64,000 nt of DNA from Cristatella mucedo (Eukaryota; Bryozoa; Phylactolaemata; Cristatellidae), in assembly GCA_009760855.2 (NCBI GenBank), contig WPIO01000068.1, positions 246,001 to 310,000 of the forward strand, read 5' to 3'. The position numbers were made by a program, and so were the translations under genes. Shown in pieces: positions 10,949-63,802 of this stretch; the stretch's first letter is position 1, and every line of letters begins with the position of its first letter. The notes below the pieces were generated by a model that had not been told where the DNA came from, searched no databases, and saw only the letters and a list, made by a program, of their open reading frames with translations.

Positions 10949-11465
10949 TGCCATATCTCCAATAATAGTTATCAGAGCAACTTTAAATTTGGAATTTATG
11001 GTTGTTTCTATTTACTCATTATTCCAGCTGTCTCGCGTGCATGCTTGACGTAAGTAGATGGATTTATTTTAATGGTATGGTGACCTGGCTTTTTTCGTCC
11101 AACGCGTTATGGCATAATGCGCTGTGGTATTGCATGCTAATACTGATCTAATCAACATGAAACTTGGCGTATACTCTCCTTGATATGTGCTTCAAAGTTA
11201 TCTAACAGTAAACTGATTGAACCGGACCCTTTTGTGAGTAGCTGCAGGGTTTACATTATCACTTGTCTTCAACATAATTTTCCCATATGCTGTCTTTGAT
11301 AATTTGAAAAGTCTGCAGTTTCTTTCTAATTCCGATCATATCGACGTGAAATTTAGAATGTGTGCTCTGGTGCATTTGAATGTCATATAATTCCATTTTT
11401 GCTGAAAGTTAATGTTTGAACGTTATAATTTCTTTCAGATTTTTTAGATTTCTAAGATAGCCATA
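10949..11465. other. Interval with no recognised feature
   Basis: About 500 bp of AT-rich DNA just outside the left end of the TIR element. I see nothing recognisable in it. Confidence 0.4.
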
Positions 11466-11488
11466 TGAGCCCGATGGCGATAACCTGG

Positions 11489-11502
11489 GTTACCATGGTA
11501 AC
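11489..11502. promoter_or_regulatory. Perfect RFX X-box motif 1
   Basis: GTTACC-AT-GGTAAC fits the RFX X-box consensus GTNRCC-N(0-3)-RGYAAC in both halves. It lies at the centre of a 38-bp palindrome (11477-11514, one mismatch per arm). Sequence match only: binding is not shown, and the symmetry may serve the transposon end instead. Confidence 0.5.
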
Positions 11503-11520
11503 CCGGGTTATCGCACCCGG

Positions 11521-11534
11521 GTTACCATGGTAAC
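11521..11534. promoter_or_regulatory. Perfect RFX X-box motif 2
   Basis: A second GTTACC-AT-GGTAAC, centred in a perfect 42-bp palindrome (11507-11548; 21-nt arms with no loop). It overlaps the first palindrome by 8 bp. The same caution applies as for motif 1. Confidence 0.5.
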
Positions 11535-11613
11535 CCGGGTGCGATAACTTCCCGAATATTGGTACAAATTATACGCAAATAGGCTAAAAAATGTTAGATC
11601 GTCGAGTTCTATT

Positions 11614-12135
11614 TCAGAGATTTCGAAAACGATGATTTTTACTGCGAAAGTGCCAGAGGCTGACCAGATACAGGGCTCGATGACGAAAATTGAGCCATTT
11701 TCTTTTGAGAAATATATCAAGATTGATAGCTGATTTGGAATAGCCGCTGGCGCCTTCTTCGGGCGCCACACAGAGCATATCTGCACGCCTAGAGCAGCAT
11801 TCTTCGCCGATGCCCTTTTTTCTGCCACGAGTCTGCGCCATATTGGATGCCGCCGCCAATGGCGCTCCAATATTGTCAGGATTTGTATCCTCACTATCAG
11901 TGATACTACCCAGGCGAGCGCGGGCGCCGCTATTCCGGACCTCCTGCATAATCTTTTCAGACCAGCGGATGGCAATGAAGTTCCCGGGAAATGTTTCCAA
12001 GAACTTGCACACCAATTCCATTGTGTTGCTAAGAACATCCCTGCTAACATCTTTTATATCGTGATTAAACCCAACCATAGCGTGCATCCTTTCATTGAGC
12101 TCTTTTGCACATAGTTCTTCAGATTGCTTTGACAT
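11614..12135 (-). CDS. Unrecognised 173-residue reading frame inside the TIR element
   Basis: This is the only sizeable frame reading in from the right TIR; its ATG lies about 150 bp from the element end. The N-terminal half looks protein-like: an acidic/helical start (MSKQSEELCAKELNERMHAM), then a DVSRDVLSNTMELVCKFLET stretch, a FPGNFIAIRW segment, and near residue 105 a basic GRKKG patch that might be a nuclear localisation signal. The C-terminal third (from about residue 135) is less convincing and may be read-through. I see no DDE/D transposase motif, zinc finger or signal peptide. No function is proposed. A spurious frame cannot be excluded. Confidence 0.4.
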   Translation of the reverse strand: MSKQSEELCAKELNERMHAMVGFNHDIKDVSRDVLSNTMELVCKFLETFPGNFIAIRWSEKIMQEVRNSGARARLGSITDSEDTNPDNIGAPLAAASNMAQTRGRKKGIGEECCSRRADMLCVAPEEGASGYSKSAINLDIFLKRKWLNFRHRALYLVSLWHFRSKNHRFRNL

Positions 12136-12504
12136 GATTCTGACGATGCTGCTCCTGAATTAGGTCAGCTGCGTATTTTACTTCGAAACACTATATTTTT
12201 TAGAGCAGCAACCCAAAAAATTAATAATTAATTGCGATTCTGCTTACGTAAATTTGGTAACTCAGGTTACCACTCACGGGCTCATATGTGGCTGATTTCA
12301 GCGGGAAATTATGACCTTGACCTTTACTGGTCATCAGAAGGTCAAAACGACAGCTATGGATATATCAAAAGATAGCTTATGTTGCCCTTGTTTGTGCCAA
12401 TTTGCATGCTGATCGTTTGATTGGTATTTCAGAAGCATCCATGAATGTGCTGTCAATTAAGCTAAATCATATAGGGGTGGGTCATAACTCGCAACCCCTC
12501 GGAC

Positions 12505-16024: not shown

Positions 16025-17470
16025 ATGTCATTGGCCTCAGGTCAGGTCCCAGCAACTTTCAAAAAAGCTGTAGTCAGACCTCTCCTCAAGAAAGCAACAC
16101 TAGACCAAGAGAACTTGAGCAACTACCGCCCAGTCTCCCTTCTACCATCTCTATCAAAGACACTGGAACGGGTTGTGGCAGACCAGCTAAACTCATATAT
16201 CGAAACCTCACACCTTGCTAGTAAGTTCCAGTCCGGCTTTAGAGCGAATCACTCCACAGAGTCAGCATTGCTTCGGGTATACCACGACCTACTTAGGAAT
16301 GCAGACATGGGTAGAGTGTCTCTGCTTGTTTTGCTTGATGTTTCGGCAGGTTTTGGCACCATCGATCACAACGTTCTTTTAGAGCGCCTCTCATCTCGCC
16401 TGGGCATCACTGGCACTGCTCTGCAGTGTTTCAGGTCCTATTTCAGTGGGAGACTCCAGAGTATTGACGCGAATGGACAAAGATCATCTGAAGTACCTCT
16501 GAAATATGGAGTACCTCAGGGCTCCGTGCTAGGTCCGGTTCTTTTCACGGTTTATACTCTCCTTCTCGCTGATGTGATTGCCAAGCACAATCTAGGCTTT
16601 CACTTCTATGCGGATGACACTCAGTTGTACCTTTGCTTTGATCCCTCCCAGCCTTCGAGCACCTCAAATTCTCTAAACTCACTGGCTGCATGCATTGATG
16701 ACATCCGCACATGGATGGCAGCAAATTTTCTTAAACTAAACGATGACAAAACTAACTTACTAGTTATGGGCAAACCCAGTGTGATTCAGAAATTGAAAAG
16801 GCTGACGCTCAAAATTGGCTCTGCCAGCATATCTCCTGTCGAATCAGCTCGAAATCTAGGTGTCATATTCCAAAGCGACCTCTCATTAGACGACCATGTC
16901 AGCTCCACGGTCAAATCTGCCTATTTTCAGCTTCATAATATTGCTAAAATTCGGGCTTGTTTAGATAAGGATACCACGTTTAAGTTGGTCCATGTATTCG
17001 TGACATCTCGTCTCGACTTCTGCAACTCACTGCTTACTGGCCTACCAGCATGTGCGATCAGTCGATTGCAGCTGGTGCAAAACTCGGCAGCTAGGCTTGT
17101 CTGTCGTGAGCGTTGCAGTTGCCACATTACTCTACTTCTCGCCGACCTGAACTGGCTACCAATCAAGCAACGGATTGACTTCAAGGTTTTGTCGCTCACT
17201 TTTAGGTCCCTTCATTCTATGGCTCCAGCCTATCTCTCCGACATACTCCCCCATCAGGCCAAGCATCGTACCACCCGCTTTTCGGAATCCAACAGTCTAG
17301 AAATACCTCGTACAAACCTCAAATCCTTTGGAGACCATGCATTTAGTTCGTAGGCTCCCGAAGCGTGGAACTCCCTCCCGACCTTCGTCAGAACATCCCC
17401 TGACCTGACCACATTTAAAAGGAACCTAAAAGCACACCTATTTAGGACAGCATTTATTGGGTCCCCGTGA
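16025..17470 (+). pseudogene. Family A reverse transcriptase, interrupted by one nonsense codon
   Basis: The frame is 482 codons to the family's normal stop, with a single internal TAG at 17351-17353 where other copies have a Tyr codon (SSYAPTAWN). Before that it is open for 442 codons. It encodes the palm-like [19 protein letters not shown], a motif A of [13 protein letters not shown] (the first Asp is kept; the family's AFD is changed to GFG), [20 protein letters not shown], the catalytic [21 protein letters not shown], and the CR1/L2-type C-terminal region ending in a TTFKRNLK block. Endonuclease and ORF1 are absent. It is non-functional because of truncation and the stop. Confidence 0.9.
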
Positions 17471-19320: not shown

Positions 19321-20892
19321 GTCCCTTCTACCATTCCTATCAAAGACACTGAAACGGGTCGTGGCAGACCAGCTGAACTCATATATCGAAACTTCAAACC
19401 TTGCTAGTAAGTTCCAGTCTGGCTTTAGAGCTAATCACACCACAGAGTCAGTATTGCTTAAGGTATACAATGACCTACTTAGGAATGCAGACATGGGTGG
19501 AGTGTCTCTGCTTGTTTTGCTTGATCTTTCGGCAGCTTTTGATACCATCGATCACAGATATCATATAGAGCACTTCTCATCTCGCGTGGACATCACTGGC
19601 ACTGCTCTGCAATGGTTCAGGTCCTATCTCAGTGGGAGAATCCAGAGTATTGACGTGAATGGACAAAGATCATCCGAGGTACCTCTGAAATATGGGGTAC
19701 CTCAGGGCTCCGTGCTTGGTCCGGTTCTTTTCACGGTTTATACTCTCCCTCTTGATGACATGATTGTCAAGAACAATCTAGGCTTTCACTTCTATGCGGG
19801 TGACACTCAGTTGTACCTTTGCTTTGATCCCTCCCAGCCTTCGAGCACCTCAAATTCTCTCAACTCACTTGCTGCATGTATTGAGGACATCAGCACATGG
19901 ATGGCAGTAAATTTTCTAAAACTTAACGATGATCAACTAACTTACTAGTTATGGGCAAACCCAGTGTGATTCACAAATTGGAAAGGCTGACGCTCAAAAT
20001 TGGCTCTTCCAGCATATCTCCTGCTGAATCAGCTCGAAAACTAGGCGTCATGTTCCAAAGTGACCTCTTGTTAGACGACCACATCAGCACCACAGCCAAA
20101 TCTGCCTACTTTCAGCTACATAACATTGCTAAAATTCGGGCTTGTTTAGATAAAGATACCACGTCTAAGTTGGTCCATGCATTTGTGACATCCCTACTTG
20201 ATTTCTGCAACTCGCTGCTTACTGGCCTACCGGCATGTGCGATCAGGCGATTGCAGCTGGTGCAAAGCTCTGCAGCTAGGCTTGTCAGTCGTGAGCGTCG
20301 CAGTTGCCACATTACTCCACTTCTCGCCGACCTGCACTGGCTACCAATCAAGCAACGGATTGACTTCAAGGTCTTGTCGCTCACTTTTAGGTCCCTTCAT
20401 TCTATTGCTCCAGCCTATCTATCAGATATACTACCCTATCAGGCCAAGCATCGTACCACCCGCTTTTCGGAATCCAACAGTCTAGAAATACCTCATACAA
20501 ACCTTAAATCCTTTGGAGACCGTGCATTTAGTTCATATGCTCCCAAAGCCTGGAACTGCCTCCCGACCTGCGTCAGAACATCCCCTGACCTGACCACATT
20601 TAAAAGGAACCTAAAAACACACATATTTAGGACAGCATTTAGTGGGTCCCTGTGATTCGTCCTTCATTTGCTTGTGCGTGCTGACACTGTGCATGCTGCC
20701 ACTAACCACATTTGCATGCTGACCCTGTGCATGTCACCCCTAACCATGTTATTCATGTTGTTTGTTTATCAAGCATGATATTACTCACGATTCAATTGCA
20801 TTTCCCTTTTCAGTAAATGTAAAGAGCCTAGAAAGAGATTAAGTTCTTTGAGAGTGCTTTATCAAGTGCATTATTATTATTATTATTATTAA
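19321..20892 (+). mobile_element. LINE family A copy, 5'-truncated
   Basis: It begins abruptly at the codons for SLLPFLSKTLKR and continues to the tail and a perfect (ATT)n end at about 20873-20892. It is closely similar to the 16025 and 56978 copies. Confidence 0.9.
19361..20655 (+). pseudogene. Family A reverse transcriptase with frameshift and mutated catalytic box
   Basis: It reads [31 protein letters not shown] and [20 protein letters not shown], but the catalytic YADD is YAGD at about 19796-19804, a loss of an active-site Asp. A one-base deletion near 19930-19936 (NDDQLT where others have NDDKTN) shifts the frame. The rest continues from 19951 as [20 protein letters not shown] to the normal C-terminus FRTAFSGSL at 20655. 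The copy is dead on three counts: truncation, active site and frame. Confidence 0.9.
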
Positions 20893-41520: not shown

Positions 41521-42778
41521 GAGGTAGCGACGACGGGAATGTCACTGCCCTAGCTATGCTAGATCTGTCTGCTGCCTTCGACACTATTGATCACGCGGTT
41601 CTGCTTGAACGATTGAGAACAAGGATCGGTCTGGCAGACAAAGCACTGGCGTGGTTTAAATCATACTTGTCTGATCGTGTTCAATCCGTGTCGTGTGGGG
41701 CTCAGGTCTCACACACGAGAAGGGTCACCTGTGGAGTCCCTCAAGGGTCTGTACTTGATCCCTTGCTGTTCTCCATTTATATGCAACCTCTGGGAAAAGT
41801 GATTAAGGCACATGAAATAGGATATCACTTCTATGCTGATGATACTCAGTCGTATTTGTCATTAAATGATGATAAAACCGAACTGCTGCTCATAGGACAC
41901 CCTAAGCGTGTGGCTGGATTAAAAGGCTTTGCTCTTCTAATAGGTGATGCTATTGTGCGACCATCACCACGTGCTCGAAATTTCGGTGTCGTTTTCGACA
42001 GCTGCCTCAATTTTAAAAGCTTCATTCAGAAGTCTGCTTCTACAGCTAGCCATCACATCCGATCCCTATCCAAGACTAGAAGCTGTCTCCCACAGTGGCT
42101 TGTAGAGAATTTAACTAGCTCTCTAGTTCTGTCTCGGCTTGATTATTGTAATTTCCTATTGGCTGGGCTACCAAAGAAAGCTATTAGGCCACTGCAGCTG
42201 ACTTTGAATATGGCTGCAGGGCTAGTCTTCAAGTCCCAGAGGTTTGAGCACGTGTCTCCTTTGCTAAAAGAGCTAGGGTGGATGCCGGTTGAGCAAAGGA
42301 TACAGAGCAAAGTTCTGAAGCTGACCCACAAGGCCCGTCACGGCTTGGCTCCGTCGTACCTAGCTGAATTTTTGCATCCGTTTCAGCCTGTTCACGCCCT
42401 GAGGTCCTGTGTGGACAATAAATTAGGTGTAGCATTCCTCCGCTTAAAGACAGTTGGCGACAGAAGCTTTAGCTCTGCAGGTCCTAGACTGTGGAACTCG
42501 CTTCCACAATTCTTTTGCAACGACAACTACTCTCCTACTGCCGACTATGGCTCATCCTTTTCAGCGGTCCTGAGCTGCTACTTCTATGCTACTCACTACC
42601 TCAACTGCTCTCCTGACTCTGCTATGATTCCCTCTTTCTCTTTGTTGCGTGAGACGAAGTCTGTTGGCGACCGAATGCGTACCGAAAGCCGCTTAGGGTG
42701 TGAGTGCGCTATACCAAACTCTCCTGTGTAACACCCACATGGTCTTTATGATTTTGTGGAGTTACAGACGGAGATACA
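41521..42778 (+). mobile_element. LINE family B copy, 5'-truncated, inserted into a family A tail
   Basis: The copy runs from the codons for GDDGNVTALAMLDLSAAFDT to the family B 3'UTR (ACACCCACATGGTCTTTATG) and GTTACAGACGGAGATACA. Both flanks are family A tail in minus orientation, so family B landed in family A. About 40 bp of the host tail appears to be missing at the junction. Confidence 0.85.
41556..42731 (+). pseudogene. Family B reverse transcriptase, open frame with 30-codon internal deletion
   Basis: The 391-codon frame is open to its natural stop. It holds motif [40 protein letters not shown], the catalytic [33 protein letters not shown], then the C-terminal ELGWMPVEQRIQSKVLKLTH and GPRLWNSLPQFF blocks. 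Compared with the 53831 copy, 30 codons between YLS and LNDDKTE are missing in frame (the segment ending DIRSWMSDNFLK), with a short ATTAAA-like microhomology at the join. The frame is intact but the protein is incomplete, lacking the endonuclease and part of the RT. Confidence 0.9.

Positions 42779-46899: not shown

Positions 46900-63802
<16,903 letters not shown>

Follow-up and report, generated by a model that had tools for sequence, protein, structure and literature searches.

The 64,000-nucleotide stretch of Cristatella mucedo contig WPIO01000068.1 analyzed here (hereafter the window) contains, at positions 11467-12283, what we consider with a probability of about 93% to be an old insertion of a non-autonomous DNA transposon that arose by a ~1.9-kb deletion from a ~2.7-kb element, spread in trans and still carries a remnant reading frame without selected function. 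The insertion is an ordinary deletion derivative and apparently a fossil. In this course of events, an element of ~2.7 kb lost ~1.9 kb internally, giving rise to a short family in which both ends were kept, and this deletion removed the core of a DUF7869 transposase, probably of the DDD type. The transposase of longer relatives would then have acted in trans on the common ~28-bp ends, and the short form could have spread to many ANNT targets, with a 4-bp duplication at each. The 173-codon frame of the short form is the leftover N-terminus together with part of the C-terminal tail, without selected function. An apparent orphan gene in a mobile element is in this way explained as a deletion scar in the transposase of the element itself. 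Genome annotation could otherwise fill up with many such “unknown genes”, and the defined repeat family, with its ends, target-site duplication (TSD) and longer parent, is usable for masking this genome.

Borders and target site of the element

The initial annotation had described a compact element with terminal inverted repeats (TIRs), and these proved real: inverted arms at 11462-11495 and 12255-12288 (34 nt, 82% complementary) enclose the element, and shuffling the whole window 60 times with its dinucleotides preserved gave no pair of comparable quality (TA-flanked, 8 exact end bases and ≥20/30 matches). The actual sequence held this pair and 32 more, all 32 among inverted LINE-related copies at 56.9-59.7 kb. 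Borders were screened in 113 loci, with both ends found in 73; an exact 4-bp TSD was present in 34 of these 73 and the inner two bases agreed in 48. The 34 exact duplications were ATAT (16), ATTT (9), AAAT (3), AATT (3) and AGTT, AACT and ATGT (1 each). The absence of other copies, or similarity running on past the borders, had been named as grounds for dropping the element; copies were found, and the similarity between them stops at the TIRs, with ANNT duplications beyond.

Since the TSDs elsewhere read ATTT, AAAT, AATT, AGTT or AACT, the TA noted on both sides of the window copy is the middle of an ATAT duplicated at 11463-11466 and 12284-12287. The borders accordingly shift to 11467-12283, an element proper of 817 bp (GAG...CTC) with its left TIR at 11467-11494 (plus strand, family consensus GAGCCCGATGGCGGTAACCCGGGTTACC) and its right TIR at 12256-12283 (minus strand). 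Because the target has the form A-NN-T, a 2-bp and a 4-bp duplication give identical letters; we take the duplication to be 4 bp, the alternative being a 2-bp TSD within an A-NN-T target.

The joined flanks of 40 copies were also compared with other sequence. Two loci, L052 and L032, gave clear results, a third (L028) was gapped at the junction and left out, and L004 gave a single match. Both L052 and L032 were inserted in LINE-related repeats, of which other copies lie in the window. Among repeats lacking the insertion, the tetramer was single in 8 of 11 for L052 and in 4 of 6 for L032, the remainder being one base different in each case. Since the joined flanks of both loci can be aligned with unfilled copies right through the junction, they represent transposition events with known empty sites, and the ends that they have in common with the window copy again place the element proper at 11467-12283. 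The dispersed copies, the TSDs and these two empty sites bear out the suggestion of the initial annotation that a non-autonomous DNA transposon is present.

The repeat family in the genome

The source genome comprises 572 Mb in 688 contigs. Among 456 first-look candidates, whose unscored members are to be regarded as unproven copies, 40 long matches were scored including the window copy, and the other 39 were 78-82% identical to it. The 19-base core of the ends occurred at 266 genomic sites with ≤1 mismatch, compared with 1 site for the reversed control. The first 30 copies had common ends TGAGCCCGATGGCGGTAACCCGGGTTACC, differed from their own consensus by 5.6-11.7%, the window copy being the most diverged, and showed a median pairwise identity of 86%. 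Dispersed copies bordered by TIRs and a TSD are thus present, as are longer relatives with the same ends and a transposase (six long elements; DUF7869). No relative of the element was found in viral contigs, and a literature text search for the end sequences gave no title on such an element among the matches listed. The window copy belongs to a dispersed family that derives from an ordinary cut-and-paste DNA transposon and whose many copies are old and shortened.

Long relatives and their transposase

Four long loci with the same ends (L053-L056) measured 2704-2826 bp. A fifth, L033, measured 3820 bp and includes parts matching LINE-related sequence of the window, and in a sixth long relative, L050, one end was not found; some other ends of long copies had diverged. 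All six contain sequence from both flanks of the deletion junction with an internal part between, as in L033, which aligns to window positions 11667-11905 and 11906-12284. The internal part, which relative to the window falls exactly on the junction 11905/11906, covers 1912 bp in the long consensus, so that long relatives of ~2.7 kb hold ~1.9 kb of extra sequence, namely the transposase core.

In the orientation of the window, the minus-strand frames of the long consensus encode pieces of a transposase. The first piece starts MSKQSEEL..., the same N-terminus as that of the window frame, later pieces hold EDFGGS, LDNCVGQNK and GHSHNQAD blocks, and the last ends in a DNIGAPLAAASDMAQTRGRKK... tail. 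They are distributed over three frames and separated by stops (introns or breaks). A core piece of the consensus exceeds the Pfam threshold for DUF7869 (47.1 bits against a cut-off of 26, E 2.7e-12), and comparison of a core piece with the PDB gave nothing reliable; L050 alone reached 17.2 bits, below the cut-off. Across the whole genome, 14 candidates yielded three DUF7869 matches, all above the cut-off (47.3, 34.4 and 33.6 bits), and each falls inside sequence akin to the interior of the long elements; open frames at these matches reached 151 codons at most. By eye, the candidates for a DDD catalytic triad would be one aspartate in each of the EDFGGS, LDNC and HNQAD blocks of the consensus for the long elements.

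None of the six long copies was open throughout (longest open stretch 242 codons), and no intact source copy was present among the copies examined. L053 alone of the six had one open stretch across two pieces, reaching from the first piece of the core into the block with LDNC. Selection ratios (defined below) for these copies were 0.93-1.19 in the N-terminal and core pieces and 0.89 in the short tail. An older relative of the long element was also observed at two loci, L057 (G000:C134:287600-291200) and L058 (G000:C198:127200-130800), which are 67-78% identical to the long consensus, depending on the piece. The two are 98% identical to each other over 3.5 kb, as would be expected of a recent duplication or of a single degenerate copy represented by two haplotypes. 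Two core pieces of the long consensus compared with L057 gave selection ratios of 0.89 and 0.96, with no clear signal, and the N-terminal part of the consensus had no alignment with L057.

Origin of the 173-codon frame

The frame of 173 codons reported in the initial annotation is present on the minus strand at 11614-12135. From its start it follows the transposase over residues 1-76, passes through a junction codon, continues with 30 residues of the C-terminal tail and closes with 66 out-of-frame residues. The run of A after ...RGRKK has 8 bases in the long consensus, compared with 7 for the short consensus and 6 for the window copy, and it is after this run, at residue 107, that the frame leaves the transposase reading. 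An overlapping frame of 180 codons (11508-12050, minus strand), absent from the initial annotation, takes up the reading of the transposase tail beyond the A-run. Profile searches of both frames against Pfam, PHROGs and NCBIfam gave nothing reliable, as did comparison of the 173-codon frame with PDB sequences, and an AlphaFold2 model of the single 173-codon frame was uninformative (mean pLDDT 36.6). The frame was rightly said to show no transposase motif, because the part bearing the motifs was deleted. It unites the two ends of a transposase gene that has lost its catalytic middle. It is thus not the captured or accessory gene offered in the initial annotation, and the unrecognized element type offered there is not needed.

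Selection on the remnant frame

Selection was expressed as the ratio of nonsynonymous to synonymous changes relative to neutral, CpG-aware expectations over 123 codons from the ATG in 90 short copies. These are a non-random sample that combines the copies most similar to that of the window with loci picked for intact ends; of 106 loci in the screen for short copies, 15 were insufficiently covered and L077, though aligned, was set aside as an outlier. The initial annotation had proposed looking for purifying selection between copies, and the ratio obtained was 0.95 in frame compared with 1.08 and 1.01 for the two alternative frames. When changes were divided by sharing, values were 0.83 for those in one copy, 0.96 for those in 2-4 copies and 0.98 for those in 5 or more. 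The start of the frame was recognizable in 81 of the 90 copies, and the fused frame was open into the tail in 15, the window copy included, 10 of them with an ATG.

The first 30 copies had given a hint of constraint, with a tail ratio of 0.69 (a value that low occurred in 0 of 2000 simulations) and, in the N-terminal part, 133 second-position changes compared with 196 expected. This hint weakened at 90 copies, where the ratio for the tail (28 codons) was 0.80 and second-position changes numbered 559 vs 578 expected, the simulations having covered the 30-copy set only. By sharing, the tail ratio was 0.54 for singletons, 1.00 for changes in 2-4 copies and 0.77 for those in 5 or more. We take the residual low tail ratios to be noise; the 173-codon frame evolves close to neutrally.

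Alternative explanations

A host or accessory gene captured by the short element would fit the length of the frame, which was equaled only 5 times when the element was shuffled 5000 times with its dinucleotides preserved, and a weak Pfam insulin-family match at residues 35-117 (E 0.025, 16 bits, below the cut-off of 23). However, the matching stretch crosses the deletion junction and extends beyond residue 107, where the frame has quit the transposase reading, and the match is most likely due to chance. Long relatives moreover have both coherent parts of the frame, in the same order, at either end of their transposase frames, which together with the near-neutral evolution in 90 copies makes a captured gene very improbable. 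A still smaller weight is given to a Tc1/mariner-type MITE with a TA duplication. The inner dinucleotide is indeed TA in the window copy and in others (the ATAT cases, 16 of 34 exact TSDs), but other copies duplicate ATTT, AAAT, AATT, AGTT, AACT or ATGT, and these varied ANNT duplications, not being a duplication of TA, rule such an element out for practical purposes; in addition, the core of the long relatives matches DUF7869, and no Tc1/mariner Pfam family appeared at E up to 1 in the pieces scanned.

A slim chance is left to the short elements having been selected to make a core-less transposase, consisting of the N-terminus and tail, that represses the full transposase in the manner of KP elements. 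The fusion of the two parts in one open frame, kept in 15 of 90 copies including that of the window, points in this direction, as do the lower tail ratios overall, in singletons and for changes in 5 or more copies. Yet an in-frame fusion is expected by chance in about one third of cases and the frame has been lost in most copies, while the ratio over 123 codons is close to 1, also for shared changes, and that of the tail is 1.00 for changes in 2-4 copies. It likewise seems unlikely that the fused core-less protein, made while the family was active, bound the common ends and damped transposition, so that the spreading of the short form would have been self-limited, KP-like. The deletion derivative with a remnant frame remains the preferred reading.

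Affiliation and comparison with known systems

The DNC.GQNK and GH....AD blocks of the long consensus presumably resemble those of Sola-type transposases, and DUF7869 is, as we assume, linked to Sola, for which Bao et al. 2009 is reportedly the original paper. A literature search did not return the term DUF7869 among the matches listed. Together with these blocks, the ANNT duplication suggests an element that may provisionally be called “Sola2-like”. PMC3627910 reports 4-bp AWWT TSDs (ATAT, AAAT, ATTT) for Sola2 elements of the social amoebae Dictyostelium fasciculatum and Polysphondylium pallidum; AT-rich 4-bp TSDs are thus common to both, with 31 of the 34 exact duplications here being ATAT, ATTT, AAAT or AATT, whereas the TIRs are 28 bp here compared with 12-13 and 21 bp in the amoebal elements of that text. 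The A|NN|T target also resembles the A|AT|T target in which ISL2EU elements (PHIS superfamily) show a 2-bp TSD (PMC4482050). Unlike in ISL2EU, the inner dinucleotide varies here and the core matches DUF7869. No Pfam match to a PHIS-type DDE family or YqaJ was obtained in the pieces scanned, and ISL2EU/PHIS, which would call for an AT dinucleotide TSD, a PHIS DDE transposase and a YqaJ partner, was rejected.

KP elements, which repress P elements, are internally deleted P elements that have kept both ends and an N-terminal fragment of the transposase. The present element is similar to these in its internal deletion and in retaining both ends and an N-terminal transposase fragment, and differs from KP in that there is no clear sign of selection keeping the remnant protein. 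MITEs are short, TIR-bounded elements present in many copies and without a working transposase. All of this also applies to the present family, whose ~820 bp are on the long side for a MITE and whose descent from a longer relative can be seen directly.

Palindromes and LINE fragments

The palindrome GTTACCATGGTAAC, which we take to fit the RFX X-box consensus, lies at 11489-11502 and 11521-11534, adjoining the left end of the window copy, and also occurs in left ends of the family. It was found at 94 genomic sites vs 2 for the reversed control, and in 21 of the 90 short-copy loci; two sites were present in the window copy and in only one other of the 90 loci, L109. The second site in the window is held in a perfect 42-bp palindrome (11507-11548) that is extra relative to the family consensus, and around which the DNA fold of 11462-11560 has a z of -7.06.

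Elsewhere in the window, many related fragments of LINE reverse transcriptase were observed at 16025-17353, 19361-20655, 41556-42731 and 56857-59615, with an RVT_1 match in three of the four frames scanned. The stretch at 57168-59550 forms an inverted pair that is ~93% identical.
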